Below, one piece after another: positions 2,166 to 38,985 of a DNA stretch of 64,000 bases. The DNA lies in NCBI GenBank assembly GCA_025526915.1, contig JAHLKH010000086.1:43047-107046 (forward strand). Reading direction: 5' to 3'. This DNA is from Entophlyctis helioformis. Its lineage: Eukaryota; Chytridiomycota; Chytridiomycetes; Chytridiales; Chytriomycetaceae. A program made the translations under genes and the position numbers. How positions within the stretch are numbered: the first letter of the stretch is position 1; every line of letters begins with the position of its first letter. Below the pieces are notes generated by a model, which was given only the letters and a program-made list of their open reading frames with translations, had not been told where the DNA came from and did not search any database.

Positions 2166-2332
2166 AGGCTCATGGCGGCGACGGCCAATCGACTCGCGTC
2201 CCTCCATCCAAGTGACTACACACCAACCGCGCAAGGGCGATGCGGCCATGAACAGACACCTGTACAAGCAGCACATGAACCCTTCTGCACAGATTGTTTC
2301 GTCCACTTGTAAGGAGATGTACGTGTTTGTGT

Positions 2333-16356: not shown

Positions 16357-16635
16357 TCCCCAAGACACTAGATGCCATACCCTTTCGAGCTTTAGGCCGT
16401 GCGTAGATCCCTCAGTTATGTCATCCCCCTGGTCCGACACGTCCATGGTGATGTATCCATAAAGTACGCTGGAACACACCATGGGCAGCCTGAAGAAATG
16501 CGCACATTCGCGAGGCAAACGAGAGAGAGAGAGACGGCGCAGTGGCAGAGCGAAGCCACGCAGGGCAAAAGAGCAGCAGGACAGCCAGATGAGGATGGCA
16601 TGCCAAGCAAAAGTGGATGGCAGGCAAAAGGGAAT

Positions 16636-16707
16636 GCTCCGTACAGGGATCGAACCTGTGACCTTTGCGTTATTAGCACAACGCTCTACCGACTAAGCTA
16701 ACGGAGC
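16636..16707 (-). tRNA. tRNA-Ile (anticodon AAT), no intron
   Basis: The reverse complement folds as a standard 72-nt cloverleaf: acceptor stem GCTCCGT/ACGGAGC (7 bp), D arm GCTTAGTCGGTAGAGC, anticodon stem TTGTG/CGCAA with loop CTAATAA (anticodon AAT, read as inosine-34 after editing), variable AGGTC, and T arm ACAGG-TTCGATC-CCTGT. Identical base for base to the copy at 36838-36909, although the flanks have diverged. Confidence 0.95.
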
Positions 16708-16711
16708 CCCT

Positions 16712-17363
16712 TCATGCCCGAAGAAATCTCTTGTTCTGTATATTCGTTACTTTGTATGAAGATGCAATTTGAAATGCGACGTGATGCGCTGGGCTCGACA
16801 AAGCAGTCCAGTGAAAGCACATCGGCCACCACCACCGTATCCATCCACTCCGCAGTATACCTCCGGAAGCCCCGAGATCAACATGGAAGAGACCCCAGAC
16901 CATTCTGTCCTCATAAATGCTATTCAGCAACATTGACAAGGCATGGCCGGAAACGCATGTTACCACGGGCGACTTGTGCGAAACAACCGTGAGCAGGTAG
17001 GCGTTTGACGGCATGCGGTATCGTATGATGAGCTCGCAAGTCCCGTTTGACGGTTGGGACATCCGTCTCGCGCCATATCACCTTACACTGCTGTGCAAGG
17101 CACACGGCCGTGCCAGTCGCAGCATCACCTGCAGCAGTCCAACAACGACCGTCTGCATCGCCCCTTGCTGCACAGTCCTCGTCGACCAAGACCGTCGCGC
17201 TCCAACTGCCGCCGTCGCTGTCGCTGTTTGACGACGCGTCCATGTCCCTGTCCAGCACCAGCAGCAGACTGTCGGCGTGGCAGTGGGGGCCGGGCGATGA
17301 GACGGCCGACATGTTTGGCTGGCCATCCACATCCAGATGATCCATCGCACCACAAGCAGACAC
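16712..17363 (-). other. Duplicated open frames of doubtful coding status, copy A
   Basis: Two overlapping minus-strand frames (17363-16920 and 17062-16712) stay open in this copy and largely in copy B (37563-37285 and 37261-36914). Differences between copies fall in all codon positions, which argues against strong protein constraint. A GTAAGG donor at about 17088 could join them, but the phases do not agree. I recognise no domain; could be a relic exon of the adjacent membrane gene. Confidence 0.25.
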
Positions 17364-17462
17364 ACATGCACAGGTAGAGAACAGTCAACGAGATGTGTTG
17401 AGAAGGAAACAAATACATTGGATATCACAAGAGTGTTCAGGCTTGGCAGTCAATCACAGCAA

Positions 17463-18480
17463 TCAGTCACCGCCGCCGTCACCACCATCACCACCATCAC
17501 CACCATCACCACCACCACCACCACCACCAACACAGCAACCACCATCATCATCACTGTCACTTCCGTCTCCATGTCCTGAAGTCGGCTTCTGAGCAGGTCT
17601 CCTTGAACACTTGATACAGCACACAAGAAGCAAGGCCACAAAGGTAACGTAAGCGCCGATACCTAGAATCACGGACATTTGGGTACTCTTCCTGGCCTCC
17701 TCCTCCGCGATCTGCCTTTCCTCTTTACTTGGGGGTGCCATGACACTGTGGACGCGGACAAAGAGCCTGGATGACCGCGGCGCGTACTTGGACGGCGTGC
17801 ACTGTGCGGGTGCAGTGGAGTTGTCGATCGAAGCGATGGTGGAACATGTCTTGCAAGCGCTGTCGCTGCAAGACTTTGTCCACGAAGCGCCGTCTGTGTA
17901 TGAGATGGACTGGTAATTGACGCATCTCTCAATGCCGATCAGGAACACGCGAGTGACGGCTCTGGGATCGCCTGCCTGACATCCAGCGATCGACGAGTAC
18001 TCGTTGACTTGGACGGCGGGGCTTCTCGTGTCCTCGTTGAACAAGGTGTACCACTGGCGGTTGTTGCGCACATTGCTGCTCGAGTTGGTCGGGCCAGCGA
18101 CGTCTGTGAACGGTCGGGCAGGAAAGTATCCGAGCTGAAGCCAGTTGATGGGAATGCCAGGTGATGCGGTGCTTGAGAACGGCGAGAGTAGAAGCGACGA
18201 GTGGCACGACGAGCAGCTGGCCGACGTCGTGGAGCCGCAGTTGCTGTACAGACGGACGTCGGTGACGTTGGATGGCAGGCGAGGCGAAGACGAGATCTGA
18301 GCCAGCCGGGCAGGCTGTGGAGACGTCGAGCACAGGACCGATGATGCTTGAGAAGGGGAACGACGGGATGGCGGGCGGGTAGACTGGGCTGCTGCTGACT
18401 TGGATGATGGTTGCTTGGGCAGCGACGGCAGGCACAAGGCACTGGAGCGCAAGGTGGAGCACGGCGAGCACAGGCAGCAT
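17463..18480 (-). CDS. Cys-rich single-pass membrane protein, copy A (frame broken)
   Basis: Unknown family. The ATG at 18480 opens a signal peptide (MLPVLAVLHLALQCLVPAVAA). The ectodomain is Ser/Thr- and Cys-rich (CSSC, CQAGD, CKTC). A transmembrane helix (about GIGAYVTFVALLLVCC) comes at the end, then a basic stretch and a Gly/Asp-rich tail encoded by a CAC/CAT-rich repeat at 17468-17550. Relative to copy B two bases are missing at about 18270-18276, where copy B reads SPAASNFTDV, so the signal peptide and the rest lie in different frames; with two bases added it is 340 codons. The membrane helix and tail differ completely from copy B. A surface receptor or adhesin is possible; no function is assigned. 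Confidence 0.6.
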
Positions 18481-18845
18481 GGCGATCGGGTACTGCTGCT
18501 GTTGTTGTTGTTGTTGGTCGGATCGTCGCAAGATGCCGTTTATATGGCGCTGCGGTCGAGCCAAGCAGCGGCTGCCGGACTCCAACCTCCGCTCTCAGCC
18601 AAGCATCAGAATGAAGTAGCCAGTCGGACGAGCACGTTGCTTGGTGTTGCTTGGCTTGCTCGGTTGGTTCGGACCGACAGCTTGTCACTTGGACTGCACA
18701 GTCCTTGTGCCACAGACGTACTCGCGCGGCATAGTCTGCCTTGGCTGGTCCTGGCAGTGTCCTTGCTGGCCAGCGTCAGTCTACAGCCATCACGCCACGC
18801 AGTACGCAGCGCAGATGCAGAGACATCCTTGAGTTTCAACTGGAC

Positions 18846-18905
18846 TCAAGGCAGCAGTGCCAGATCGCCCTTCCACTCTTGTTTGAAGCTGTCGACCCAG
18901 CACCG
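18846..18905 (-). pseudogene. Relic of an ankyrin-gene N-terminal domain
   Basis: Nineteen codons reading RCWVDSFKQEWKGDLALLP then stop, clearly related to WVDVFK(Q).KWQGSLARLP of the gene at 299 and to FKMDWQGDLALLP of the gene at 11573. It lies 23 nt downstream of the DMX-like stop. No repeats follow, so it is a gene fragment. Confidence 0.65.
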
Positions 18906-18928
18906 CTTCATTGGCACGAGGCCACACA

Positions 18929-21900
18929 TCAGAAACGCGGCAAGACAGTGCGTGCAACAGTGCCGCTCGACAGGCACGAGTACAGGATGCCGCCGGGCGA
19001 GACAGACAGCTCGGTGATCGATCCACCCGTGCCGCTGGTTGCATGTGCACCTAATCCGATAGTGCCGCGTGCCGCCTGGCTGATCTCTGCATTGCCCAGC
19101 GCTTGCAAGTCCCATATCTACAGACACATCATGCGTGAGTGGCACAAGAGCATTCCGGGACCAGATGAGAGAGAGAGTGCAGGAGCGTACCTTGACCTCC
19201 TCGCCCTTGGACCCAGAAAACAACGAGTCCGTGACAGGATCAATTGCAAGTGACTTGATAGCATGGTCGTGTGCGCGGAACATGTTGACAAGCGATGCTC
19301 CCTGCCGCACGTCAATGACATCTATGCCAAGCGTGTGAGTGCCGTCCCATGACGCTGGACAGCAAGGCTCGTGTATGGCGACTTACAGAGGTATCCGCGC
19401 TTGCCCCCAGCAATGAGCATGTCGCGTTGCGGCGAGTACACCAGCGACACAATGCCAGCCTCGCCGATCTGGAACGCTGTCAAACCGGCAAGAGAGTGTG
19501 AGATGGAACGAGCCGGCCATGGACACCAGCCGGCCAGCCAGCCAGCCAGCCAGCGGCACAGTCTCTTACACTTGATCTTTGATTTGCTTGGCGGCACCAG
19601 CGTATCCCAAACGGACACGTTTCTATCGCCGCCACGAGCAGTCAGTCAGTCAGTCAGTGAGTGAGCCAACCGACATGCGAGACCACCAAGCGCAAGGCTC
19701 AAACCCACAAGTGGTTGGACGAGACACCCGCCGTCGCCAGCGTCGTGGTCGAGTTCATGAACACGAAATCCGAGACAGGCCCGACATGGCACTGCCGCAG
19801 CGTGATCGCAGGCCGCAGTGCCGCAGGGTTAGAGTCAAAGCGCCAGATGTGCACATCGCCGCGCGAGTCGCCTGCGCCAAAGCGCACGCCAAACGGATCA
19901 AAGTGGCAGCGTGTGAGGCGGCTGCCGACCGACGCCTGCGACTCAGGCAGTGCGTACGTGAGAAGCTCGGCAGGCTGGCCAAACTGGTAGAGGTTGACGA
20001 CCGGGCTGGCCGCGTCGCCCATCCCCGCGAGATCTGTGGTTGCCATCATGTATGTGTGTATGTGTGAGTCGCAGTGTATGCAAGGAGAGTTGGTAGTGGA
20101 CATGAAACGCCGTCCGTCCTCTGGCACTCACAGTAGTTGAGGCTGCGGTGCGACTCGATGGTCGTCACGCCATGCATCTTGCGTTTGAGTTTCTGGCCGT
20201 TGGATGCGCTCACGGCCGAGTCGTCTGTCGCCACACTTGTCAGCCCATCACACTCAGACTACACACAACACGCAACCACTGCACCACCCACCGCGCGCAA
20301 ACAGATGCGACGAAAACGCGCGCTTGAGATGGCCCGTCGTCATATCGGCGCTCATGTTGCGGCGATGCTTGAGCACCAGCAGCCGGTCATCATTGAGCGA
20401 CGGCGTGCGCGTCATGGAGATCCCCGCACGTGCACGTCCAGGCAACGCCGACGATGCCGAGCCATGCGTGCCCGTCGTGTTGAGCACCAGATCGTCCATG
20501 GACCCGGCGCTATTGCCAAACGACCCGCGTCTCTACATACACATCCAAGCGTGTGAGTCGAGGGGAGTGCACCCTACTCGGCAGTCGCGACAATACTCAG
20601 ACACGGCTCACCTCGTAAAACTTGATCGACTGCTGCATATCAATCTCGCGGATGCCCTTGGCCGTCACGATCGCCATCTCGTTGGCGTCCAGCGGGTTGA
20701 CGGCAAACGATCCGACATGGTCGCTGCCGCGGTACACAATCTCGGTCGTCTCGGCGCCATAGCGCGGGCCGCTGTTGCGCCGAATATCCATCGACAGAAG
20801 CTGTGCGCCGCCGCCGATGCCGGCGAGACCCGTGGACCCGTCGCCGCCAAGCATCGACGACGCCGTTGAAAGGCGGAACGGCGAGTCAAACGATGGCATG
20901 GCGAGCGTCGACATGCTCGGCGTGCCGGGACCCGTGCCGGCGGTCCAGTCCGACGATCCGCCCGCCTGGCCGCCATCGCCCGGCACGAGGCCGCTCTCGC
21001 CCTGCTGGTGGCCATCGTTCTCGGCGGCGTCACCTGTCTCGGTCGACGGCGACACGGCAGGCACGTCCGGTGCAAACACGCGCACCATGCGTCCGATATC
21101 CAGCGACCGCTTGAGCAGCTCCCACACGGCCTTGAGGGGCGTCTCGTACAAGTACGCCTTCATCAGGCTCGGATCAAAGGCATGCAGCGTCCAGTCTGTT
21201 GCAAGCATCGTCTGCCGGTCCAGCAAGTACCCGCTCAGCCCGCGCATGACCGACTCGGCGAGAAACGCCTGCGTGTCGTCCATGGTCGGATGGACATTGA
21301 CCACCTCCTTGAGCCGCTCGAGGTAGTGCTCGAACGTGAGGCCGACATGGCGCAGCACAATCACATGGATGAGGCGGACGGCCACGCCAACGACAGGCGA
21401 CGACGCGCGGTAGAGGGGCAGACCAAACTCGTCAAACAGCGCGGCGTCGCCGTCGAGCGTCGTTGCGGGCGAGCCGCCGGCCGAATGGGAGTGGGAGTGA
21501 TCGTCGTCTTCCGGATGCGCCAGCGGACCGTGGTCGGCCAGCAGATCGCCCAGGAGATGCGACAGGCCCACGCGGTTGTTCTTGAGGAGCACGTCAAAGA
21601 GCCGGTCGCACATGGCGACGATCCACCAGACGCGGTTGGTGTGGGATGATTCGAGCGCCGTGAGGGCCAGCACGACGTAGCCCGTCACGGTCGTCTGCGC
21701 AACAACGGCGTCGGGGATCGCCGCGCTGCCGGCCTTGTCGAGCCAGATGGAGAACGACCGCAGCATGCGCGAGGTGAGCCGCGTGAGCATGTCCAGCCGG
21801 GCGACGGTCCCGCTGCCGACACGGTGTCCGGCGCACTGAACGCAAGCCGGGCTAGGGTGTTGGCTTCCTCGGCCATGAACGTCGCCATGACCGTGTTGTA

Positions 21901-24900
21901 GTCCGAGACGGCACCGCGCAGGGGGCAATCTCTGTAAACGAGATCAGCGCATGCATCTCGCGACACCGCAGACTGAGGATCCGGTCCATGACATGCGGCG
22001 GGATGTCGACCATGCTCGACAGAGTCGCAAAGCCTTGGCGGAGGTGCGCAAAGTAGTCGGCGAACACGGGGTCGGCCTTGAGGACGGCCATGTTGTCCGA
22101 GACCACGCCAGCCGAGTGGTAGACGGCCTGACAGACTCGCATGACAAGGATCCACGTGTGCGTCTTGATGGCGCCTTTCTCCAGCAGCAGCCTGAGCCGC
22201 TGGGTCTCGGTGAGCTGCAGGGCCGTGCTGTTGCCAGGATCCGAGCCTCCTCGTCCAGCGTCGCTAGTCTTAGGTTCAGACTCAGGCTCAGGCTCGAGCC
22301 CGCCACCCAGACTCTTTTGGAACGCGGCAAGCTCGGCATCCAGATCGTCTTCGGCAGGCATCGTGCTGCCCATCTCGCCCCAATCCAGTCCGCCACTCGT
22401 TGCGCCTGCAGCAGGCTCGCCAAGCCCTCCGCCCATCTCGCCCCAGTCGAGACCTCCCGTGGCCGCCGGCTTGGTATCCAGCACCGATTCGCCCCAGTCC
22501 AGTCCGCCGCCAGTCGAGACCGGCTGCACCACGGGCGAGTCGCCGCCAAACAGCGCGGCAGCCGTATCGCGTCCCGTCGTCTTGACGATCGGCTCATCTT
22601 TGGTAATGTCGCCACTCGTGCCAGCACCACCGTCACCGCCATCAATGACCTGGATCTCTGGTACCTCTGCAAGCCGCTCGCTCTCAATGATGTGCATCGC
22701 AAGCGCCGGACACCCAAGCCGCTCATACGTGCACGCAGCCTCGTACACAAACTCTGCTTGCCGCTCAGCCGATACGCTCGGCCGCTGAACCATAAACACC
22801 TTCTTGTTGGCCCGTTCCAGGTGGCGAAAGTAGATCACGAGCGCCGGGTCAAGGTGTTGCTGCACCAACGGCGGCTGTGCAGCGGTGACGACACCAGCCT
22901 GTGCAGGAGTCGACGGGAGAAGCGACGACAGCGGCATGACGGTGGCATAAAATGCTTGGTCACGTTTGCGCAGCATGTGGAAGAGCATGGACGCCATCCA
23001 TCGGTCGCCTTTGGCAATGGCGTCCGGCAGCAGCGTGTTCTCGATCAAGTCGATCAGCATCGGCCCGTCCTCTCCTGCACACCGCGTATCAGTTGCGAGC
23101 CCACTAACCGCACATGCAAACACACACACACCGAGAGAGACAACACGACTCACCTTCGCCACGCGGACAATGGCAATCGCAAGCTGGACATCGCGGAGCT
23201 GCTTGAGACACACGGACACGGCATCCTTGATCTTGCCCGCGAGCAAAAAGAACGCCACGGCATACTCGTAGCGCTGCTTGCCGAGCAACGCAAACGCGTT
23301 CTTGAGGGCCGAGTTGCGCCACCGCTCTTCGGCGAAATCGTTGGCAAGGAACTTGAGCATGGCCGCCTGTTCCGGATGCGCCGACGCCAGCCGCCACAGG
23401 CCGAGCAGCACGGCTTTTTTGCCCAGCGCGAGGTAGAAGAGGGAGCAAGGCACCGGGTCGCGCGTGTCGTCGCCGCGGCCGAGGTACTGGTTGCGCGCGA
23501 TCGTCTCGAAGGTGCGCTTGAGCGTCGCTGGGTCGCGGATCCACAGCGCGAGGCCGAGGTCGCGGGCATCTGACCATAACAGCTTGCCGCCGGGCGACAG
23601 CCGTGCAGCGAGATCGACGAGCGTGTCCTGCGACTCGGACGCGAATGCCCACGCCATGTCGCGCGTTGTGAGGCCCGTCATGTCGGCCTCGCGGTACGGG
23701 CCCGTGCTGGACGGACTGGACGGCTGCGATGTGTACGGCATGCCGGGCCGGCTGATGTGGCGAGCAACACGCGGGGAGGAAGCCGTAGCGCTCTGCACCG
23801 AATCTGCCGACCGGCCAAAGAGAAAGAGCGAGAGAAAGAGCAGGTACCGCACGCCATTGTCGTCGAGCGTCTTGTGGTACTCGTCCAGCTTGCCAAACGT
23901 GTCAATGAGAGCAAGGAGGAGCGTGCGGTCGCTCTCGCCAAACCGCGGGAACGTGGCACGCTTGAGCAGCTCGGCCAGGTGCTCGGCATCTGCCAGCGAG
24001 AACGAGCCGACGGCCGTATCGCGGGCCGCCGTGTCATCGCCAAACGCAAAGAGCGCGTCGTGGTTGGACGGCGTGCTGGCATCCTGTGCGGCATCGTTGC
24101 CAAACAGTTTCCACAGCGGGATCGGCGCATCCAGAACAATCTGGCTGGATGCCGGGTCTGGGATTGTGCCGGTCGACGACGATGTGGAGGACGTGGCAGC
24201 GCCGACTATGAGCGACGCGTAGCGGTGCAGAAGCGACAGGTTGTACTTGACGACATCGTAGCGACCCCACAGCAGGTAGTGGATGAGCAGCTGCGGGTGG
24301 TGGTCGGGCAGTCGGCCGTTGAGATCGGACGCCGTCCCAAAGATGCTGGCAGGCACGCCTTGGTCGGGTGTTGCGACCCATTTCTCGAGCATCATGGTGC
24401 GCGAGGCAGTGGAGACGAGGAGGGATCCGTGGTGCAGCCACGCGAGTGTGCGGAGAGGATCCGATGGCTGCAGCTGCGTGCACGAGATCTGTGTCCAAGT
24501 CGACGCATCCGACGGCGACTTGAGCCGTTCCTGCGCGTACACCATCATGCGGGACAGGGTGCCCACGGCAAGGAGGTGCTGGCCATCCGAGGCCAAGAGC
24601 CAGTCCAGACAGACAACTTGCTCTGCCAGCCTGACGGACCATTCCAGAGACATGGCGAGTCCAGACGCGCCGCTCGACCACACAGAGACCTCGCAGTCGC
24701 CCGAGGGCGATGGCTTGTGGGCAGCTGCGTTCGAAACAACAGCAAGTTTGCCAAGCGCATCGGCTACAATGGTGTCCAGAACGGCAGTGGGTCCCAGATC
24801 GACAGTGGCCACTGGAACCCAGACGAGCGCAGCAGGTTCGCACGCTTCGTCATGGGCCGGATCAGGCAGGCTTGTCGCAAGCGATCCCGACGCGCAATGC

Positions 24901-27578
24901 CACAGCGTGACCGTGCCCGAATGCGAGACCGTCTTGAAGACATGGGATCCAGGCGGATGGAGCGGTGTTTGGAAATACGCCAGATCAGTTGGCGCGTGCA
25001 CCGAGTGCAGATCAGTGCTTGCCATCGGCAGACTGCTTCTGGCCACGAGCGTCACCGAAGCGAGAACAGAGTCGGCCACCGTTGCAGCGGGAGCAGCCGA
25101 TGGATGAAACGTGGCCCTCCAGACAAGGACCACTGCCTGCTCTGTCACGCCGACGATATGGATGCAAGTGTCGGCAGGCACGAGCTCAGTCGAGCCAACA
25201 GGCTCATAGTAGAACGCATGGACCATTTTGAGCGGGCCTTGATCCATGTGGGGCAGACAGCCAATGCGAGCGCGCCATAGTCGTTGACACGCCACAGTAA
25301 CACGTCGTCGCCATCCGCACCATGGCAATAGGGGCATGCGGCATCCATGCAACGACCGGCATCTGTCCAGCATCACGCCGGCCACACACGGGCAACGCAG
25401 CCACAAACTGCAGGCTCGTTGTCACTCGCAGCCCACGACGAGGGATCCCCGTGCGATGCGCCGAGCACGCGCCATTCTCGTCGACCGTGGCCGCGTACGG
25501 CAGCCCAGGATGGCGGACGACGCGGCGCACAGGCACCTGCGGCCCGCTCCACGAGAACGCGAGCGTGAACCGCGGCGCCGTCCACGCCCCCGTGAAAAAG
25601 TCGTCCAGGTTCATCGTAAAGCACCGCAGCACGCCATCGCTGCGGCGCTGCGCAAGGAGCGACAGCTCGGCGGGAAAGTAGACGGCCGACCGCGCGAGCG
25701 ACTGGCTGTTGCAAAACACCTGCAGCGGTCCCTGGAACACGTCGGTATCTTCTGGGCGGAGCGTCTGGTCAGTTTTCATAATGACAATGAGCTTGGGTGC
25801 ACGGACGGGGTTTGTGGAGAGATGCTGGATGCCCCAGATGAGGACGGCGCCGGACCGCAGGACGCAGAAGAGCATGTCTGGGTAGTCGATGAGCATGTCG
25901 GCGAGACGCTTGCTGCGAGACGCAACAAGCTCGGCGGGCTTGACGGCCGTGCCGCGGAGGTAGCGCGTCTCGAGATCGTCACGGAGATGAGTGACGGCAT
26001 CAAGTGCGGCGCCAGTGAGCCAGTGGATGGCGAGCGGCTCGTCGGATTGGGATGCCTTGAGAGACGGATCGGAGCGATGGTCAATGCCACTGCTGGTGCT
26101 AGGCGAGGCGTGTGCATCCGCAGATGACAGACGGCCAACCAGACCGCCGGCGGCGTTGGTACCCGATGTGGCGCAAGCCCCGTGAGGCGAGTCGCCATTG
26201 CTGGTGGTCTCTGAGTCGGATGGCGATGAGAGATCAGGCGATGCGATGGAGAGGCCCTGGGATCGCAGAGGGTCGATGGCGACGGTCATGCAGAACGACA
26301 CGATGCCGGATGGCGACGTGGGAAACTGTGACCAGATGCGGCAGATGCCGTCCTCGGTCAGAGTCAGGATCGCGTTCATGGCCGACGACGTGCCCGATGC
26401 GGGCGACTGCAAGGAGGCGATGGATGACGGCGCTGACGCCGAGCGCCATTCAAACGACCGCACGGGCTGGTGGTGCGGCAGATAGACAAAGTCAAGAACC
26501 TGGGACGGAGGCGACGCGGGTGCTGATGCCAGAGGGCCAGATCCCAGACCAGCAAGGAGAGATGCCGAAGCAGCCGGCGTCGAGAGCTGGGCGACCGACG
26601 GCCCATTCGGCCGATGGTACCAGATCTTTGGCAGGCGATCGTTCTCGGACATGGTCAAGAGCAGGCTGCCGTCGGGAGAGTACTGCGATGCGGTTGCTGG
26701 CTGGGCAAGACGGAACTGCTCGACGAGGGTCATGGGCGACGACGACGAGAGGGTGGTGGCGTCCCAGATCGCGACGGTCTCTGAGCAGATGGTCAAGTGG
26801 CCTGTTGGAGTACGGAGAGCGGTGTCAGCAACGATGCATGCGGCAGGCGCGGCAAAGTGGTGGTGGTGGTGGTGGTGGTGGTGCAATGGGCACCTTGAGC
26901 GCTCCAAGCGAGCGACGACACGGGCTGTGGATGCTCGAGGACGGCGACGCGTTCCCACACAGGCGCTGGCGGGGCGAGCGGGACAGGGCCGGCCGGTGCC
27001 TGGAGAGGTGCAGGGATGCCGTCCCCCAGCGGGCTGGCTGGCTGTTGCTGTGGTTGCTGTTGCTGTTGCTGCTGTTGGACCGCATAGCAGGCGACGCTGG
27101 AGCCGAGCGACACGGCAATCTGCGATGCGTCCAAGGCAAGCCGGCGCGCCGTGTCAGTTGGCCAGTTGGTCAGACGGACAGGCAGGCAGCAGGCAGGCAG
27201 GCATACGGACCCAGGCGTTTGTTCTGTCGACGGCCAGAGCGCCAAGAGGGCCTGAGGTGCCGAAGAGCCACCAGCGGCGGCCTCAAAGGGCAGCAGTTCC
27301 TGCACGAGCTCAAACGAGCCCGAGCAGATGGCGAGCTTGTTGTTGCAGACGTAGACCTGGTGGCGACGCACAGGCAGACAGACAGGCAGGCGGACAGATA
27401 CGGCCAGCGTGCGTCAGCGAGGGCATGCCAAGGGGCACAGAGGGCAAAGACAAGGCGGGCGACTTGCAATGTAGGAGAGCGAGGCGACCGAGCAGGCGCC
27501 AAAGGTGCGCTCAGTGCCGCCGCGCGATGTGTTTGGGCGAGGCAGCAGCGCCGGGTGGTGCGCGGCAGCATCGGCCAT
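18929..27578 (-). CDS. DMX-like/Rav1 WD40 protein (RAVE V-ATPase assembly)
   Basis: Regulator of V-ATPase assembly. Exons (minus): 27578-27468, 27356-27207, 27119-26894, 26801-23154, 23069-20612, 20532-20292, 20224-20132, 20033-19709, 19622-19570, 19476-19387, 19321-19191 and 19117-18929. N-terminal WD40 blades include PKIWYHR, FVYLPHHQPVRSFEWR and ICRIWSQ; the Rav1 core includes GLALWIRDP, CSLFYLALGKKAVLLGLWR and YAVAFFLLAGKIKDAVSVC. A linker has repeated LDWGE motifs. A C-terminal WD40 domain follows (YLAGMGDAASPVVNLYQFG, VSVWDTLVPP), as in animal DMXL and unlike yeast Rav1. About 2,572 residues. Four apparent single-base losses (about 25320, 25251, 21936 and 21820) break the long exons; with four bases added the total is exactly in frame. 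First intron is GC-AG (GCAAGT). Confidence 0.9.
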
Positions 27579-28007
27579 GTCTTGGTCGTTGTCGTGGTTG
27601 TCGTTGTGGTTGTCGTGGCAAACTCCGCGGTGCGTTCACGGCATTGCAGGCAGGCATGCCAGGCATGTCAGGCATGGTTTGGCTGGTGCACACACGCAGA
27701 CACGTGCAGACAATAGGCGCACTTACATACACTTGCACACTTCTACAGACACACACTTATACAGACACACACGCACACTTGAACACGCACACGCAGCCGA
27801 TCGCCGCGTGTTCGATGTGGTTCTGCAGGCCGGCCGTCCAAGGGCACGTCGGCCGCACGGCTCTGTGCGAGCGAGCGAGCGAGAATTTATCCCCGTCCGC
27901 CCACCGCCACCGCACGATAAAACCGCGCACACGCATCGCATCACGGGTTGCCCGCACACTCGACACTTTACACCGTCACCCGTCACCCGTCACCTCTCCA
28001 CGCTCAA
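27579..28007. promoter_or_regulatory. Divergent promoter, DMX-like/mitochondrial Hsp70
   Basis: The 429 nt between divergent start codons hold CA-rich repeats (about 27700-27790), GAGC repeats (27867-27883) and an A/T patch GATAAAACC near 27914 that could position Hsp70 transcription. I see no clear heat-shock element arrays. Confidence 0.45.
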
Positions 28008-29266
28008 ATGCTCCTCAACCGCCTTGCATCGGCCTCGTCGTCGTCGCTGCGTGCGGCCGCCTCGATGCGCCACGCCGCCAAGGTGCGCTGTCTGTCTGCC
28101 TTAGTCCGCCTTAGTCTTTGTCTGTCTATGTCTGTCTTAGACTGACCCTGTCTGTCTACGCCTGCCTGCCACTCCAACCGTCCATCCATCCCCGCTTGCT
28201 CAGTTTGCTGCCGGCGTGCCCCGCTTTGCCAGGTGAGGCCTTTGCTGTCATGCTGCTACATGCTGCTACATGCTGCTACATGCTGCTACTGTTGCTCTGC
28301 TACGATCAGACCCGCCCGCTGACACTCTGCCACTCGCTCACTCGCTCGCTGTCTATTCGACCACCGCTGCACTCGTCGTCGTCCCGCCCGCCCGTGCCCG
28401 CAGCGACAAGGTCCAGGGCCAGGTCATTGGCATTGATCTCGGCACGACCAACTCGTGTGTTGCTGGTGAGTCGCTGGCTGGCCCTGTGGTGGTTGCCACT
28501 GGCTGCTACCAGTTGCTACTACTAGCAGTAGTAGTCGTCCTACTGCTGGCTATAGTGCCCCTTCCCTCTTCCCCGCACGGACCGCCCACTGACCGCCCTC
28601 TGCCCGCTCCCTGTGACTCGACCCAACTCGACTGATCCTCGGCCCCGTGCGCCTTCTCTCGGATTCTCGCGGATTTTTCTTCTTGCGCGGCCGGCCCTTC
28701 CGTGTCCTTCTGCGTCGTTCTGGCATCCACAACCACCAATACATCGACTACCACAACAACAACAACAACCAACAACAACAACAACAACCACGACGACGAT
28801 GAACGGCACCTGCTGATGCCCCGATCGCTCGCTCCGGCTCGTTTGATCGCTTGCTCACTCGCCTGATCGCCCCCGCCAGTCATGGACGGCAAGAGCCCCC
28901 GCGTGCTCGAGAACGCAGAGGGTGGCCGCACCACGCCCTCGATCGTCGCCTTCTCCAAGGACGGCGAGCTCATTGTCGGCACCCCCGCCAAGCGCCAGGC
29001 CGTCGTCAACCCCGAGAACACGCTCTTCGCCACCAAGCGTCTCATTGGCCGTCGCTTCGAGGACGCCGCCGTCCAGGAGGACATGAAGACCGTCTCGTAC
29101 AAGATCGTCAAGCACTCCAACGGCGATGCCTGGGTCGAGGCCCGCGGCAAAAAGTACTCGCCCTCGCAGGTCGGTGCCTTTGTGCTCCAGAAGATGAAGG
29201 AGACCGCCGATGCCTTCCTCGGCAAGCCCATCAAGAACGCCGTCGTTACCGTCCCCGCCTACTTCA

Positions 29267-29297
<31 letters not shown>

Positions 29298-30860
29298 TGG
29301 CCAGATCGCCGGCCTCAACGTGCTCCGTGTCATCAACGAGCCCACCGCCGCTGCCCTTGCCTTTGGTCTCGACAAGGAGGGCGACAAGGTCGTGGCCGTC
29401 TACGATCTCGGCGGTGGTACCTTTGATATCTCCATTCTCGAGATCCAGAAGGGCGTGTTTGAGGTCAAGTCGACCAACGGTGACACCCACCTTGGTGGTG
29501 AGGACTTTGACAACACGCTCGTCTCGCACCTTGTTGCCGAGTTCAAGAAGGAGGTACGTTGTCGTTGTGCACAGCCAAGTCGGACGCGCGCCGTGTGACG
29601 CGTGTTGTTGTCTCGTCTATCTCACACCCGTGTCCCTCTCTCCCTCCTCTCTCTCTCTCTCTCTCTCTTTCCCTCTCCTACCTCTAGTCTGGCATCGACC
29701 TTGGCAAGGACCGCATGGCTCTCCAGCGCATCCGTGAGGCTGCCGAAAAGGCCAAGATCGAGCTGTCCGCCACCATGCAGACCGACATCAACCTGCCCTA
29801 CATCACCGCCGACGCGTCTGGCCCCAAGCACATCAACACCAAGCTCACCCGTGCCCAGTTCGAGTCGCTCACCAAGAAGCTCATGGACCGCACCATCGAG
29901 CCCTGCAAGAAGGCCATCAAGGACGCCGGCATCGCCCCCTCGGAGATCAACGAGGTCATCCTCGTCGGCGGCATGTCCCGCATGCCCAAGGTCCAGGAGA
30001 TTGTCAAGACCGTCTTTGGCAAGGAGCCCACCAAGTCGGTCAACCCCGACGAGGCCGTCGCCATCGGTGCTGCCATCCAGGGCGGTGTTCTCTCTGGCGA
30101 GGTCACTTCCATTCTTCTCCTCGACGTCACCCCCCTGTCGCTCGGTATCGAGACCCTCGGTGGTGTCTTCACCCGTCTGATCAACCGCAACACCACGATC
30201 CCCACCAAGAAGTCCCAGACCTTCTCCACCGCTGCCGACGGCCAGACCCAGGTCGAGATCAAGGTCTTCCAGGGCGAGCGCGAGCTTGCCAGAGACAACA
30301 AGCTCCTCGGCCAGTTCAACCTCGTTGGCATCCCCCCCGCCCCTCGCGGCATCCCCCAGATCGAGGTGACGTTTGACATTGACGCCGACGGTATCGTCAA
30401 CGTCTCTGCCAAGGACAAGGCCACCAACCGCGACCAGTCCATCACCATTGCTGCCTCGTCGGGTCTCTCCAGCGCCGAGATCGAGAACATGGTTGCCAAT
30501 GCCGAGAAGCACGCCGAGTCGGACAAGAAGCGCAAGGAGGTCATTGAGGCCTTCAACCACGGCGAGTCGGTCATCCACGAGACCGAGAAGGCCATGGGCG
30601 ACTTCAAGGACCAGCTCGAGAAGGCCGACATGGACAAGATGCGCGCCGAGATCCAGGAGCTCCGCGACCTCATGGCCAAGGGTGCCGAGAACCTCACCCC
30701 CGACGAGGTCCGCGAGAAGTACGCTGCCGTCCAGCAGTCGTCGCTCAAGCTCTTCCAGAAGGTCTACGAGAAGAAGAACTCGGAGACTTCCTCTGACGAG
30801 TCTGCCAAGAAGTCCGAGACCGTCGACGCCGACTTCAAGGACGCCAAGAAGGACAACTAA
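28008..30860 (+). CDS. SSC1: Mitochondrial Hsp70 (Ssc1/mortalin type)
   Basis: Matrix chaperone and import motor ATPase; also partner of iron-sulfur assembly. Exons 28008-28082, 28204-28232 (29 nt), 28404-28465, 28880-29553 and 29688-30860 sum to 671 codons in frame. The N-terminus is a classic presequence (Leu/Ser/Arg/Ala, no acids before about residue 36). Hsp70 signatures are all present: [23 protein letters not shown] and [15 protein letters not shown], then the substrate-binding domain and an acidic/Lys-rich lid ending KDAKKDN. Close to bacterial DnaK in sequence, with no ER or cytosolic C-terminal motif. The third intron is long for this genome (414 nt) and rich in CAACAA repeats; the second contains TGCTGCTACA repeats. 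Symbol by homology to yeast. Confidence 0.95.
28246..28292 (+). repeat. Intronic tandem repeat TGCTGCTACA x4
   Basis: Four copies of a 10-nt unit inside the second intron of the mitochondrial Hsp70 gene. Confidence 0.7.
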
Positions 30861-31019
30861 GCGCTTAGGCTGTCCCTCTCCCTCCCCTTCACTTGTCTCC
30901 TCCCTCCCACCCTCGTCTCAATCCCTGAGACCTTTATCTGTGCAATCTCCTCCACTATTTTTCCCTCTTTGGCATTTCACCAATAAGACACAATCACGTC
31001 ACATTGCCTCAAACACGAG

Positions 31020-32663
31020 ATGGATTCCGAAGATGGTGGCTGGATGCGCCAAAAGACACGCCGTGGTGGCTATCGCGAGAGGAAACGCAAGGCCAAGGCA
31101 GCCGAGCAGCTTGCAGCGTCAGCAGCTACTGCCAGCGACACCGAGGCTGAAGTGGCGAGGCTGGCTAGGACTGTCGCCGACCTGCCACCCTTGACAATGC
31201 CGACAACGAACAAAACAGTGGCCAAGCCCAGACGCGTCAGGGCAGACGCGTCTGGATCGACCAGGCAGCAGGCGGGTAAGTCTGCCAGACGCTCGTCGCA
31301 TCAGAGTCTATCCACACTCTTGCCCGCCTGGCTCACACTCGACCTCTGGCCTGCCACGCCATCCACCAGCTGCAACGCTCGTCAGTCCAGACGATGCTTC
31401 CCAAGTCGTCAAGGAGATCAAAGCTTCTGAACGTTGTTCCAATGCATCCTCTGCCATCAGCCTTGCATCAGACATGGGCAGATCGCATGCATTGGCAAGT
31501 GTGGCAACTGACGACGATGCTGCAACGCAGCAACTGGTCATCCAGGCACTGCATCTGTTTGACCGACTCACAATCGCACAGCAACGCACCCGCCAATGCC
31601 GCAGCCGATGCCGCCAGTGAAGCACAGCAGATCAGCGAGATCCGCACAGCTGCCGCCTGTCTGCTCGACCGCTATGCCCACAGCGCCAACATCGCCGAGT
31701 CCACTCTGCTGCAGATCGTCCTGCTCCCGCTTGACTCGGCCCGGCACGTGCTTCCACTTGCAGCTGCATTGTGGACAAGGCGCGTGCGGATGCGGGCCTG
31801 TGTGTGCGCATGGCCGACATGGTGCTGCGGCTGGTCATCATGCTGCCTCGCCGCCACGCTTGGATGCCACCCCTCGTCGCGAGCAGCCCGCTCCTGCACC
31901 ACGTGGTCGACTGCTGGACCCAGACGCTGCAGACGCTGCTCGGCTCGGCTAGCAGTGGCCCGTGTCTGCTGCCTGCACCTCGCAGCGGCATGGCATGGCT
32001 TGACGGTGCGATGATGGCCGACATGGCCAGCATACTGAACGATGTCACGACGGCCGAAACCCGCAAAACAACGGCCATGGCGGTCGGCCATGTGCTGTTC
32101 CTTGGCCATCTGTACAACCGCTCGCTAGTGCCGACGCCGCTGGTCGTGGAACATCTCGTCCGTCTCTTGCGCGCAGTTGTCCGGGGCCAGCCGCCTGACG
32201 AGATGCGTCTGCATCTCTTCTGCAGCCTGATCCAATGTGTGTGCGACCGGCTGATGGACGCACTCATTGTGAAGGGTGGGCAGGCGGGCTGCAGCCAACC
32301 AAGCACACGATCGCCACAACGCGGGCACATCGAACCACAGTGCACATCACGGCCACGCCTGTCCAGGTCCATGGCTTCGAACTTGCCCATGCACACAACG
32401 CCGGCAGGGCTGAACGAGCGTGGCTGTTCGCATTGCAGCCGGCCATCCCACAGACACTGCCAGCCAGCATCACGCGCGATTTCCACATCCCGACTGTTGC
32501 AGTGACACTTCAGCACCTGAGCACAACAACCGGCAGAGAGTGTGCAACACGACTGCGCAGACAGCCACCGTCATGGTGTGCGTGTGGAAAGCCAAGACAC
32601 GCGACCACGCAGACGGCCGGCACTGACACGGCGACACGATCCAGGCGGCTACTGCTCGGCTGA
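31020..32663 (+). CDS. MIF4G-like (eIF4G-type HEAT) protein 1, frame breaks
   Basis: Probable RNA/translation-factor scaffold of the MIF4G fold. Exon 1 (31020-31275) encodes a basic, Lys/Arg-rich N-terminus (KTRRGGYRERKRKAKAAEQ); intron 31276-31369; exon 2 runs from 31370 to about 32268; intron 32269-32366; last exon to 32663. The region from about 31765 (IVDKARADAGLCVRMADMV, then GHVLFLGHLYNRSLVP and LVRLLRAV) matches the helical repeat pattern of MIF4G. The frame changes near 31575 and again near 31770, so one to two bases are missing or extra. The C-terminal ITRDFHIPTV matches [10 protein letters not shown] in the paralogue at 39584. It is shorter after the MIF4G core than the paralogue. 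Confidence 0.6.
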
Positions 32664-32853
32664 ATGGACAGAACGGCACAGCAGGGGCATGCGAGTGGTC
32701 AAGGCTGCAATGAATGAACGCACTGGTGTGTGAGTGGCTGGCAGTCGCCCATCTTCGCAAGTGGAATGGCAGCGTGCAGCAACAGTTTCGAGAACGCTCA
32801 GCGTCATGCCATCGTCCATGGCAAAATGCAGCCTTCAATCCACTCGTTCAGAA

Positions 32854-35800
32854 CTAAGTCAGGCGGAACCTCCCGATTGAAGCAATGCGCTCGCGATCAA
32901 TGTCTGATCGTTCTTCCATCAGCTGAGCACGCACTGCATGTGCATCGGCCGTGCTCATTGTGACAGGGACATGCGGCGTAATGTACAGGCCAAGCTCAGG
33001 CGGAAGCCGCGACGCTATCACGCCAGTCTCGTACCAGTCCTGCTGCTGTGGCGCCACGTGTGCAGTCGACACAACACGCTTGGTAGGATCCACAAGGAAA
33101 AAGACCAGCGTCTTGCAGTGTCCCGGCTTGGACGGATCAGCCAGCTTGAACGGCCTATCTTGGTGGTACCAGCTGTTGGGGAATACGACGCATCGGCCCT
33201 GGCTCGCTTGGATGCTTCCAAGAGCCTGCTCGCCAGAACAATTGTTCTGAACACCATACACAGCTTCGTAGTAGAAGTGATTGTCCGGCTCGTATTTGAA
33301 TGGCGGGTCGTGAGTGTTGACCGTGGTGCAGAACGACCAACGCGGCTCGGTGATGTTGACCATGTCGTAGTAGTAGATGCCTGTGGCGACAATCGACTCG
33401 TTGGCTGCGCCTTCGATGTGCCAGCTGTCGCCACCATACTCGGGATTCTCGGGCGTCAGGTGGATGTTGGCGAGCTTGACAATGACCTGCAAGTCGCGGC
33501 CATGCAGGCTGACGGGTGCTAATGGCGTCTTGGGCGGCGAAAACGTGGCCGGTAGTCGCGGCTTCAAGAAGCCCCTTGTTGGGAGATCTGCCTCTTCGTC
33601 CCAGTATTCATCAGTGTCCATGTTGATCTTGCCCGCCTGAGCCTTGCCAACATATCGACAGCCTTCCGGTAGTTCTCGTCGTCGTCGTCGCCTGGATATC
33701 TGATGATATTGGCGAAAAAGTCGCGCAGCTGGCGGCGGTCATGTACAGGCTGTTTGGATCATCATGTATAGCTCGAGGCCGTCGCTGTACCCAAACAGAC
33801 TCTCAAACAGCGGCACGAACCGCTCAAACACCTTGGCGATCGTCTTGTAGAGCGAGTTGTGCCAGATCGGATGCAGGTTGTTGATGTACGAGTTGATGGA
33901 CACGGTGCCGTCGTCGTGGACGCGGAACTCGGACGGCAGCCACTGGAACGCAGTGACACAAAGCTCGTATCCTTGCCAAAGACCGGGAGACCTGAAGTGC
34001 TTTCGCTTGCAGACACCACGTCCCATGACGGTGTCGAGGTGGCCATGGCGCGATCGTCGCTGGACAGAACCATACTGCGACCGTACACGAGCGGACAGAG
34101 TGATGGATGCACGAGATCGAGCACCTTGCCGTCCGATCCTGGATGCCAGTCCTTCTTGTGGTCTGGGACGTTCTCAGCACGGCAGCTTGGCGGACCAGAG
34201 CGTCTCGCAGCGACTCTGGCACGGCATCGTCCGACATGGTCGTGCATTTGACGGCTCCAGGCATGACAGTCACCACATCGCCGCTTGCGAGCTTGACAGT
34301 GCGCACTTCGTACTCGGCCAGATACTCCAGCTCGCTGAACAGCAGGCTCAGTGCGCGCTTTGAGACCCCCTGCGCAACAGCCTCTTTGCGCCATTGAGCT
34401 GCAATGGCGGCATCCGTGAACCTGGTCCACCAGAGCGGCTTGGAGAGTGTCGAGCCACGCAGTCCAAGATAGTCGCGCTCCTTGAGTGTAAGGAACGGCT
34501 GCTGCATCTCGGGAATGAGCGGCGACGGAAGATCAGCGCCGCTCTCATTGGGCAAGATGGATATGCCGACTGTCTTGAAATGGTGTGGAAAGTGCTCGTG
34601 CATCATCTCGAGAAGCAGATGCATCGACTTTGGGGGCGTATCGGCGTGATTGATGAGATCTTGGAGCACGGCGGGGAATCCAACGATTTCCATCTGGACA
34701 GCGGCGGGGTTCTCGGGCTTTCCGGCAGACGCCACCAACAGTGCGTGCAGCATTTCAACAACTGTGCCATCTCCAATGCCCGAATGCTTGATTTTCTCGA
34801 GGAGAGCAGGAACGATTCCGCATTGCAGATAACAAGCCAGGATGGCCGCAGTCCTGGCGGAGCGAGTGTTCCGAATAGGCTCATACAGGCGGCCGAGGAC
34901 AGTCTTTGAAAGCTCCTTGTTATGATGGCCAACGACGGTGATGAGCTTCGCGACAATGGATACCAATTCTGTGGTGCTAGTTGGGGCGTCATCCTTGCTC
35001 AGAACGACGACGATGATCCGAGAGATGCTGTTGACGAGCTCGCAGTGCTGATCGATGGCAGCAAGCGATTGTGCCAGGGCGACGTCAAGTAAATCCAAGA
35101 CTCCGGCTGGGAGTGCTTTCAGAATGATCGGCTCTCCGCCATAATCTTCCATGATTTCGCAAAGAGCGTTGGCAATTGGCGGCCGATGGCGCGGCTCATG
35201 GATTGTCCTGACGTATGCAGACGACACAAGCATTAGCACCATGCAATGCAGATCAGATCGTCACGGCCGCAACTTACTTGAGCCTGTTGATGATGGCATG
35301 CACTTTGCCCATTTTCACGTCCTCAGATGTCCGTATTGTGTTGCAGTAGAGAATGCAAATGGCTGCCTTTTCTGCAACTTCATCGTCCTTGCTAAGCAGC
35401 GGCCAAATCGCACCCAATAGCCATTGCTTATGCACCTGTCATTGAAAAGGGTCAGCAAACACAGAGAAGGGTTGTTGTGCGAGTGCGTTGGCAGAATAAT
35501 GCTCACTTGGTTCCGACGTTTGTGGAGGGTCCAGCACTTTGCAATGACATCAAGCAGATGCAGAATCATGTGCCTCTCTCTCTGCGATGTAATCGCTTCA
35601 GCAAGAAGTTTACCGCTGTTCTGAATCCAATGACACCATGAACCGTTGCTAGCCATGTCCAGCACGGTGTTTGCTGCCTGACAGTGTCGCATGCGGTGTC
35701 AGTTGGAGACCACGGTGGTTCTGCAAGATGAACGATGGATGCTTACAGCTGCGCGGACACTGGCGTCCTTGTCAATAAGCAGCCGAATAATCCTGGATCC

Positions 35801-36355
35801 AAGATCTTCTCTGCCAAATGAGCCAACTCTGCCGCTGGCATTGACATTCCGAGCAAGGCAGCCAGTCACTTGCAATGCAGCAATCTGGCAGCATGTCCGT
35901 CAGTCGAGAGCGACACCAGATCTGCCATCAACGCGCCGTGTCGTGGGTTGTGGCACGGCAGCAAGTTGCATCGACAATGACGAACCTTGACGAGCGGCGA
36001 GGTGTGCCAGAGTGCCAAGATGATGGCCCATGACAGGCCAGCCTCCCACAGGACACTTAGGGGGCCGTTGGTGCCGTTGGAGTGCTCAGTAGCTGCAGGG
36101 CCACACACACAGACACAGACAGCGGCTGGTGTCAGCTGGCGGTTGTTGGCAGACGCTCAAGAACGGGCTGTTGATAGCAGACTCACACAGCATGCCTTGA
36201 ACGGTCGTCCATGCGTTCAGTGCATCAGCAATATCGTCTGTGTCGTCCGCTAGCTTAAGGCGAGCAACAAGAGACTTTGCGGTGTCGGCGTCCATGCTGG
36301 CGTCTGGGCTGGCTTCTGGGCTGGCTTCTGGGCTGGCTTCCGAGCTGGCGTCCAT
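32854..36355 (-). CDS. Armadillo/HEAT-like repeats fused to DUF4246 (C-terminal frame breaks)
   Basis: Exons (minus): 36355-36187, 36092-35986, 35884-35747, 35677-35507, 35435-35279, and 35207 down to a stop at 32854. The first about 480 residues are helical repeats of armadillo/HEAT character (ALQVTGCLARNV, LLIDKDASVRAAAANTVLDMAS). The C-terminal part is DUF4246, a fungal family: WWTRFTDAAIAAQWRKEA, DWHPGSDGKVLDLVHPSL, INNLHPIWH, LQVIVKLANIHLTPENPEY, SWHIEGAANESIVATGIYYYD. The WHxE and later GHCKTLVFFLVDP resemble the metal site of 2-oxoglutarate dioxygenases; that activity is inference. The frame breaks at about 34170 and 33985 (one base missing each) and the join at 33640-33770 is unresolved. 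Residues 2-30 have SPEA repeats from a 12-nt unit. Confidence 0.75.
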
Positions 36356-36502
36356 GCTGGCTTCTGGGCTGGCTTGGAGCAGCGTGTTGGACGTTCGAGG
36401 CAAACAGCGGTTGTTGTCGTCGCTCTGAAAGTCACGTGACCGTCGCGTCTGGATCACATCTCCAACTGCAGATCGCTCACAGGTGCTGGTATGTTGGTGA
36501 CA

Positions 36503-36507
<5 letters not shown>

Positions 36508-36546
<39 letters not shown>
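36508..36546. repeat. (GA)n microsatellite at edge of duplicated block
   Basis: About 19 AG dinucleotides in a row, ending ten bases before the left edge of copy B of the 2.4-kb duplication. Confidence 0.9.
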
Positions 36547-36548
<2 letters not shown>

Positions 36549-36837
36549 GACAAAGCCCCCAAGACACTAGATGTCATACCCTTTCGAGCTTTAGGCCGTG
36601 CGTAGATCCCTCAGTTATGTCATCCCCCTGGTCCGACACGTCCATGGTGTTGGCTCCATAAAGTACGCTGGAACACACCATGGGCCGCCTGAAGAAACGC
36701 GCACATTCGCGAGGCAAACGAGAGAGAGAGAGGCAGACGGCGCAGTGGCATAGCGAAGCCACGCAAGGCAAAAGAGCAGCAGGACAGCCAGATGAGGATG
36801 GCATGCCAAGCAAAAGTGGATGGCAGGCAAAAGTGAT

Positions 36838-36909
36838 GCTCCGTACAGGGATCGAACCTGTGACCTTTGCGTTATTAGCACAACGCTCTACCGACTAAGC
36901 TAACGGAGC
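36838..36909 (-). tRNA. tRNA-Ile (anticodon AAT), second copy
   Basis: The same 72-nt cloverleaf as at 16636-16707, identical in every base, with acceptor GCTCCGT/ACGGAGC and anticodon loop CTAATAA. Identity within diverged flanks shows that it is under selection or converted. Confidence 0.95.
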
Positions 36910-36913
36910 CCCT

Positions 36914-37563
36914 TCATACCCAAAGAAATCCCTTGTTATCTATATTCCTTACTTTGTGTAAATATGCAATTTGAAATGCGACGTGATGCGCTGGGCTCGA
37001 CAAAGCAGTCCAGTGAAAGCACATCGGCCACCACCACCGTATACTTCCGATCCTTATACCTCCAGAAGCCCCGAGATCAACATGGAAGGGATCCCATACC
37101 CTTCTGTCCTCAAAGATGCCATTCAGCAACATAGAGTTGATGCAGCCAGAAACACGTTCAGGCGTAGTTGACTGGTGCGAATCAACCGTGACCAGGCAGG
37201 CGTTTGACGGCACGCGGTATCGTATGACGAGCTCGCAAGTCCCGTTTGACGGTTGAGCCATCCCTCTTGCGCCATATCACCTATTCACTGTTGTGCAAGG
37301 CACACGGCCGTGCCAGTCGCAGCATCACCTGCAGCTGTCCAACAACGACCGTCTGCCTCGCCCCTTGCTGCACAGTCCTCGTCGACCAAGACCGTCGCGC
37401 ACCAACTGCCGCCGTCGCTGTCGCTGTTTGACGACGCGTCCATGTCCCTATCCAGCACCAGCAGCAGACTGTCGGCGTGGCAGTGGGGGCTGGGCGATGA
37501 GACGGCCGACATGTTTGGTGGGCCATCCACATCCAGATGATCCATCGCACCGCAAGCAGGCAC
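36914..37563 (-). other. Duplicated open frames of doubtful coding status, copy B
   Basis: Counterparts of 16712-17363. The frames remain mostly open but replacements are spread over all codon positions, and the far end of the first frame is shorter than in copy A. No domain recognised. Confidence 0.22.
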
Positions 37564-37713
37564 ACATGCACAAGTAGAGAACAGTCAACGAGATGTGTTG
37601 GAAAGGAAACAAATACATTGAATATCACAAGAGTGTTCAGGCTTGGCAGTCAATCACAGCAATCAGTCACCGCCGCCGTCACCGCCGCCGCCGTCACCGC
37701 CTCCATCTCTGTA

Positions 37714-38687
37714 TCAGTGCCCATGTACAACCGGCTGCCGAGTATCCGAGAGCACAACAATGTTCGGATGCATGCCAACATCGTTTATGTCGCGAATGCG
37801 GCGACCATGGCGAAACCGCTTGAATGCAGATATGAAACGGGTGAAAATCTCCAGCAAACTCAAGAAAACGACCAGGATGAACACACAGGCGAGGAAATAC
37901 AAGATGCGCACAAGTCTACTGTCGACACTTGTATTATCACTGCTGCTATTGGTGGGGTCTGCTTGGATCGTGACACTGTGGACGCGGACAAAGAGCCCGG
38001 ATGACCGTGATGCGTACTTGGACTGCGTGCACTGTGCAGGTGCAGTGGTGTTGTCGATCAAAGCGATGGTGTAGCATGACCTGCAGAGGTTGTCACTGCA
38101 AGACTTTGTCACGAAAGCGCCGTCTGTGTATGAGATGGACTGGTAATTGACGCATCTCTCAATGCCGAACAGGAACACGCGAGTGACGGCTCTGGGATCG
38201 CCTGCCTGACATCCAGCGATCGACGAGTACTCGTTGACTTGGACGGCGGGGCTTCTCGTGTCCTCGTTGAACAAGGTGTACCACTGGCGGTTGTTGCGCA
38301 CATTGCTGCTCGAGTTGGTCGGGCCAGCGACGTCTGTGAACGGTCGGGCAGAAAGTATCCGAGCTGCTGCTGGTTGATGGGAATGTCAGACAGCGGAACT
38401 GACGAGTTGCACGATGAGCAGCTGGCCGACGTGGTGGAGCTGCAGTTGCTGTACAGACGGACGTCGGTGAAGTTGGATGCTGCTGGCGAGGCAAAGACGA
38501 GATCTGAGCCAGCCGGACAGGCTGTGGAGACGTCGAGTACAGGGCTGATGATGCTGGAGTAGGGGAACGACGGGATGGCGGGCGGGTAGACTGGGCTGCT
38601 GCTGACTTGGATGATGGTTGCTTGGGCAGCGACGGCAGGCACAAGGCTCTGGAGCGCAAGGTGGAGCACGGCGAGCACAGGCAGCAT
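37714..38687 (-). CDS. Cys-rich single-pass membrane protein, copy B (frame broken)
   Basis: Paralogue of the gene at 17463-18480. ATG at 38687 with signal peptide (MLPVLAVLHLALQSLVPAVAA), the same Ser/Thr/Cys-rich ectodomain, then a different membrane helix (ILYFLACVFILVVFLSLLEI) and a basic tail (FKRFRHGRRIRD). One base is missing at about 38349-38351 compared with copy A (TTTCTGCCC against TTTCCTGCCC), so the N-terminal and C-terminal halves are in different frames; with it the gene is 325 codons. At the place where copy A is broken, this copy is intact, and the reverse. Function unknown; membrane display inferred. Confidence 0.6.
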
Positions 38688-38985
38688 GGCGATCGGGTGC
38701 TGTTGCTGCTGTCGCTGTTGCTGTCGGAGCCACTGTCTTATACAGTGTTGCCACTGCCATGATCACTGCCACGTCGACCACTGCCACTGCCATCGCCACT
38801 CTTCGCCAAGCATGAAAGCGACACACGTGATCCGCAGCCAGTCAGACGAGCATGTTGTTGACTCACAGTTGGGGTTGCTTGTCACTTGGACTGCACATCG
38901 TCGTGCCGCAGACAGACTCGCGCGGCATAGCGTGCCTTGGCTGATCCTGGCGGTGTTCTTGCTGGTCGGCGTCAGCATTCAGGTC

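Follow-up and report, generated by a model that had tools for sequence, protein, structure and literature searches.

Four copies of a chytrid membrane-protein gene combine closely similar ectodomains with anciently diverged membrane anchors and tails

The stretch of DNA analyzed here, which we call the window, comprises 64,000 bases at the end of contig C86 (107,046 bases) of the chytrid Entophlyctis helioformis (G000:C86:43047-107046; the assembly totals 29.57 Mb in 482 contigs). On its minus strand, comparison of four gene copies delineates two paralogs, W1 (17463-18480) and W2 (37663-38687), that encode a single-pass membrane protein; the remaining two, C10a and C10b, were recovered on contig C10 (273,596 bases) by searching the assembly at the DNA and protein levels. 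These were first-look searches, which makes four a lower bound, and the two copies assumed in the original prediction for this locus are not the whole set. By eye, the family proteins consist of a signal peptide, an ectodomain with N-glycosylation motifs and cysteines, a stalk, one helix, and a short tail that ends in Gly/Asp in most copies; in W1, the signal peptide, ectodomain, stalk, membrane helix, and Gly/Asp-rich end can all be made out. The public names of the family proteins on C10 and C86 are BC831DRAFT_444369, BC831DRAFT_444350, and BC831DRAFT_436406, the last of which is the model for W2 (209 amino acids, tail omitted). Two protein searches, with 7999 and 7997 candidates scored, yielded no homologs outside E. 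helioformis at E 1e-3, and a scan of five proteins yielded no Pfam domains above the cut-off; the weak matches, such as Syndecan (E 0.0016), fall on the membrane helix of the public model P0002. Structure prediction for the ectodomain from four sequences gave no usable model (mean predicted local distance difference test score, pLDDT, 31.9).

W1 and W2 lie in duplicated blocks, and this part of the original prediction stands: self-comparison of the window aligns 16355-17483 with 36554-37683 (92.5% identity), 17741-18522 with 37971-38728 (90.7%), and 18680-18779 with 38877-38975 (87%). The blocks had been described as collinear except for the tail; the tail gap is real, and the W2 promoter interrupts the collinearity once more, with an island of about 150 bases. 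On C10, the two copies are inverted relative to each other, inside a patchy inverted repeat (905-3373 versus 30643-28166, 98.2%; 8305-9322 versus 24164-23147, 98.0%).

The tail is where the copies part. In the four-copy alignment, all six pairs are 90.5-97.0% identical in the ectodomain DNA, drop across the stalk, helix, and tail to 42.5-57.9% (aligned columns; a further 84-182 columns are gaps), and recover to 93.4-100% between the last codons and the convergent gene and to 95.4-100% farther downstream. The divergence island, which codes for the stalk, membrane helix, and tail, spans 274-456 bases across the copies and occupies, on the minus strand, positions 17472-17745 in W1 and 37672-37975 in W2 (with an in-frame stop at 37714-37716), in agreement with the unlike segments noticed originally (17490-17744 and 37690-37968); the four copies carry four versions of it, and both versions in the window are single-copy in the assembly searches. 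Its left edge, placed by eye, falls on the V-R-V-H-S codons, about 20-30 residues ahead of the helix, and its right edge is a few bases or less from the stop codon of W1. The shared 3' side (plus strand, 17098-17471 at W1 and the counterpart 37298-37671 at W2) takes in the final codons, the intergenic sequence, and ~78 codons at the end of the convergent gene, which is longer on C10. The clearest pair is C10a/C10b, with 136 of 136 and 238 of 238 columns identical in the downstream parts (374/374) versus 161 of 278 in the tail. Among alignment windows of 100 columns, those below 60% identity number 8 of 114, 12 of 106, and 15 of 89 in three tested gene pairs, whereas six of the seven other duplicate pairs on C10 and C86 that served as controls have none; these controls are partly dependent, two coming from one array of nonribosomal peptide synthetase (NRPS) modules and two being flanks of the gene copies.

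The convergent neighbor gene (3125-4006 of L010 and 8464-9322 of L009, the two 10-kb stretches containing C10a and C10b) appears by eye to have a hydrophobic helix and tail of its own; its versions at C10a and C10b are 98% identical, with no island, and W1 and W2 keep its last part only. The remnant at W2 (matched part 37163-37537) holds three TGA codons.

The tails had been taken to be unrelated. When 180 bases from the start of every tail were compared against dinucleotide shuffles, the C10a/C10b pair proved to be homologous (z 8.2; none of 1000 shuffles as good), and the remaining five pairs, with z 1.8-4.0, are related weakly or not distinguishably so (shuffles as good per 1000: 39 for W1/W2, 3 for W1/C10b, 1 for W1/C10a, 14 for W2/C10b, and 7 for W2/C10a). 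At the protein level, C10a/C10b alone stands out (15 of 1000 shuffles for the whole tail, 1 of 2000 for the stalk), and W1/W2 cannot be distinguished from shuffled sequences (228 of 1000 and 53 of 2000, respectively). Judged from these alignments, the C10a and C10b tails are ancient homologs and not unrelated inserts; a protein-level alignment of the tails, which the original prediction had named as a result that would speak against it, is weakly present in this pair and not in W1/W2.

The age of the tails is at odds with that of their surroundings. The proportion of silent differences (pS) in the tails is 0.61-0.78, that is, saturated, and the proportion of replacement differences (pN) is 0.43-0.58, with pN below pS in all six pairs; these values, which exclude the Gly/Asp-rich ends and, in C10b, the rear portion of the tail, come from codon alignments that, for tails so diverged, are uncertain in themselves. 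In the ectodomain, silent divergence (dS) is 0.028-0.145 across the pairs (gapped codons skipped, 233-243 codons kept per pair), and C10a/C10b couples an ectodomain dS of 0.03 with a tail pS of 0.70. With silent sites saturated in the tail and few silent changes beside it, the tail and its surroundings differ in age, and recombination is needed to explain this; low silent divergence between paralogs around a segment of high silent divergence is the pattern expected of converted duplicates with a protected island. Of the cassette replacement suggested originally, the recombination is supported, and replacement as the direction of events is one of two candidates. In first-look DNA and/or protein searches of the assembly, the W1, W2, and C10a tails matched only themselves, and the C10b tail, searched within the whole protein, found no donor; the W1 tail used as a DNA query gave 16 further matches, which reflect simple repeat within the initial ~90 bases of the query.

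The tails appear to have been protein for a long time. The hydrophobic stretch is in the frame of the gene in all four copies: frame 0 contains the best 19-residue hydropathy stretch in W1 (Kyte-Doolittle value, KD, 2.63), W2 (2.71), and C10a (3.35), and in C10b, where the top stretch of the frame is a later Val-rich run, the helix was read by eye. Together with pN below pS in six of six pairs, this implies that the tail has long been used as protein. The public gene models P0001 and P0003 omit the variable part, and P0002 includes it; that it could be an intron is disfavored, on sequence grounds, by the saturated divergence beside identical intergenic DNA and by the in-frame hydrophobic stretch in every copy.

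The ectodomain, described originally as common to both genes, is indeed similar in W1 and W2 and yet is not one open frame. W1 lacks two bases near 18274 compared to the other copies, which breaks its ectodomain frame, the remainder being open to the stop at 17463; W2 lacks one base near 38350, with the same effect; and C10a lacks one base at each of two ectodomain places. Past these breaks, W1 and W2 are open through the remaining ectodomain into the tail, as is C10a after its second break. C10b is open for 405 codons from an MLPV start, with its Gly/Asp-rich end in another frame than the helix. For comparison, 36 PF00118 fragments on 10 contigs have no evident frame break by their coordinates; six of the 36 contain stops taken for read-through introns, and one overlapping junction on C150, when translated, looks like a short intron. 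Elsewhere in the window are two GH76 genes (42887-44269 and 45090-46527), 86-89% identical, with unlike C-terminal ends that resemble anchor signals by eye; the first of these has lost one base relative to its duplicate.

Substitutions private to single copies are unevenly spread. In W1, 15 of 25 private sites fall within 120 gap-free columns that abut the tail (17768-17884, minus strand; alignment columns 1027-1143), a clustering reached by none of 5000 shuffles; in C10a, 8 of 12 fall within 50 columns near the start of the ectodomain (columns 502-546; 0 of 5000); and in W2, the clustering is weaker (6 of 5000 shuffles for 120 columns and 51 of 5000 for 50 columns). The second divergence island, in the W2 promoter (38725-38877, minus strand), is homologous to the other three promoters and strongly diverged from them: promoter pairs that include W2 score z 3.3-5.0, and those that do not score 25-31.

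Each block also contains a tRNA-Ile(AAT), called on the minus strand at 16635-16707 and 36837-36909, as predicted originally. The accompanying suggestion that the tRNA marks the boundary of a mobile or recombinogenic unit had to be rejected: three further tRNAs of equal score are found without the gene (on C10 at L011, ~5.6 kb from C10b, on C86 at L012, and on C90 at L013), and L009 and L010, the stretches containing the C10 copies, gave no tRNA call. On the tRNA side, the block ends within a fragment of a dispersed repeat (16322-16516, minus strand), of which a shorter copy is at 36557-36715 (minus strand). Of the 56 block matches listed by the assembly search, 46 fall in block bases 1-160 and belong to this repeat, and one repeat copy is next to a frame that resembles reverse transcriptase (PF00078, E 5e-4, under the gathering score). 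The repeat may have mediated the block duplication. Among the matches listed (L014-L018 and L053-L058), the reverse-transcriptase-like repeat is often near genes for small RNAs (tRNA, U6, and signal recognition particle RNA), at no more than ~0.9 kb at five of five sites in the first set and no more than 1 kb at two of six in the second; L014 and L017 have common flanks and possibly represent one event, and 63.1 kb of other C10 and C86 sequence gave no Rfam matches. A preference for insertion near small-RNA genes is possible. There are also larger segmental duplicates: 38877-42377 (3.5 kb), upstream of both W2 and C10b, corresponds to C10:25535-29039 (94.0%), and 31338-36968 (5.6 kb), which extends beyond the tRNA, to C86:33088-38738 (96.7%). 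An ankyrin-repeat gene family (window 157-2173 with C86:27535-33008) includes an inverted pair that is 96.3% identical over 2 kb.

Homogenization of everything but the tail explains these data at least as well as cassette replacement, and the reading that we favor, while giving it no better than an even chance, is that interlocus gene conversion homogenizes the ectodomain and the flanks around private, old tails. The family, so far known from this species only, would then be a small one of single-pass membrane proteins, with four members on two contigs that swapped DNA. Gene conversion, aided by recent segmental duplication, as in the inverted repeat pair on C10, would keep the ectodomain, the 3' flank, and, other than in W2, the promoter alike, with conversion tracts ending on either side of the stalk/membrane/tail segment, whose divergence is ancient, so that this segment stays private to each copy. 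It would be the surroundings, then, that were homogenized by conversion, rather than the tails that were imported; selection for unlike tails would maintain the island; and the proteins might present one outer domain on different anchors or signaling tails. Given the frame breaks in three copies, selection for unlike tails and the common outer domain on different anchors are the least secure parts of this reading. In theory, a divergence peak inside converted duplicates can mark a region held different by selection (PMC3924837).

Several observations weigh against homogenization around old tails. The frame breaks in W1, W2, and C10a suggest that either these copies are decaying or the repeats are badly polished and the assembly unresolved. 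The C10a/C10b ectodomain has dN/dS of 1.15 (5 silent and 17 replacement changes), with no sign of constraint. Similarity runs kilobases past the gene (3.5 kb at 94% and 2.5 kb at 98%); this resembles recent segmental duplication, and conversion would have needed long or repeated tracts to produce it. The signal of exchange between the contigs is weak, with 42 informative sites supporting the split between the W and C10 copies and 8 in conflict with it, and C10b has no cluster of private sites by the same shuffle test. Islands are not unique to this gene family, given that 3 of 204 alignment windows fall below 60% in the seventh control, the tandem NRPS modules. Finally, the protein searches yielded no homolog beyond E. 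helioformis that could serve as an outgroup to polarize the direction of events. As to the NRPS itself (C86:1-11872, outside the window; L045 and L046), it has condensation, carrier, and AMP-binding domains in tandem modules that are 93-96% identical, and its small divergence island, near C86:2782-2962 versus 9364-9544, is in the AMP-binding part by eye.

A live rival, near the original idea of cassette replacement, is a recent block duplication after which at least three tails were overwritten by short conversion tracts from diverged family relatives that are now lost or unassembled. The young, kilobase-long duplicates that surround the genes fit this scenario, one short event per copy would be enough, and the W1-private changes abut the W1 tail as a co-imported edge would. 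The cost is three independent imports with nearly equal borders and a further import for the W2 promoter island, from donors of which the first-look searches of the 29.6-Mb assembly found no trace, and we consider import of the tails possible, if somewhat doubtful. Very fast positive selection acting on the tail alone would account for the tail being the most divergent part of the gene; it is hardly credible and is rejected, since saturation extends to the silent sites of the tail (pS 0.61-0.78), against an ectodomain dS of at most 0.145 and intergenic DNA that differs by 0-6.6%, and selection acting on a protein cannot drive up silent divergence like this.

The state of the reading frames raises a different concern, namely, that most of the four copies are pseudogenes, located in a region prone to rearrangement, and the islands are accidents of old conversions without functional meaning. 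Three of the four copies are frame-broken, compared to none apparent among the PF00118 fragments, and the convergent-gene remnant at W2 carries its TGA codons; such relics, however, would not be expected to include C10b, open for 405 codons, or to remain open downstream of the breaks, with the hydrophobic stretch in the right frame, in W1, W2, and C10a, or to have pN below pS in the tails of all pairs. Decay of this kind seems unlikely to us. Mis-joined or poorly polished repeats are more improbable still: a GH76 copy in the window is likewise one base short of its duplicate, and small indels may gather in duplicated genes, but each copy has its own tail, ectodomains diverge by 3-10%, and each contig carries two of the copies.

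Cassette switching of antigen genes of the variant surface glycoprotein (VSG) type sets a variable segment in a constant frame, as is seen in the chytrid family; unlike in that system, variation here affects the inner tail instead of the exposed part, and copies of a donor segment elsewhere in the genome did not turn up in the first-look assembly searches. The mammalian receptor pairs Siglec-11/Siglec-16 (PMC5701461) and CD300A/CD300C (PMC12447643) have converted ectodomains and unlike tails. Judging by sequence, the chytrid family resembles them in architecture, being made up of single-pass membrane proteins with similar ectodomains and an unlike membrane segment and tail, the very combination that characterizes paired receptors; we do not claim membership. 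The chytrid family is fungal, has four copies, an orphan ectodomain, and no known signaling motif logic; its 3' flank is alike too, with the island ending at the stop codon; and three copies are frame-broken, whereas a paired-receptor system should have intact frames in at least two copies and only C10b is open, a shortfall for which assembly error could still account. Another parallel is with red/green opsin exon 5 (PMC3924837) and the GOT1 paralogs of Tigriopus (PMC3728101), where a narrow high-divergence island sits within low-divergence converted duplicates and the difference is kept by selection. Compared with those cases, the chytrid island differs in being saturated at silent sites and in having flanks that are up to 100% identical.

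The usual effect of gene conversion is to make duplicates alike. A segment that is anciently different amid neighbors up to 100% identical therefore points to a part whose difference may matter, which in this surface protein is the anchor with the tail. We would venture, as a rather unlikely reading of the sequences, that this is a chytrid version of the paired-receptor arrangement, in which one outer domain, homogenized by conversion, is set on four different anchors and tails, so that one signal or ligand might be read out differently or in different places. In literature searches that cover few of the subscription papers, we came across no fungal example of this kind. Should it hold in related species, it would extend an arrangement of animal receptors to fungi, in a group whose cell-surface biology is little studied; should the tails turn out to have been imported instead, the family would clearly exemplify the swapping of membrane anchors in nature.

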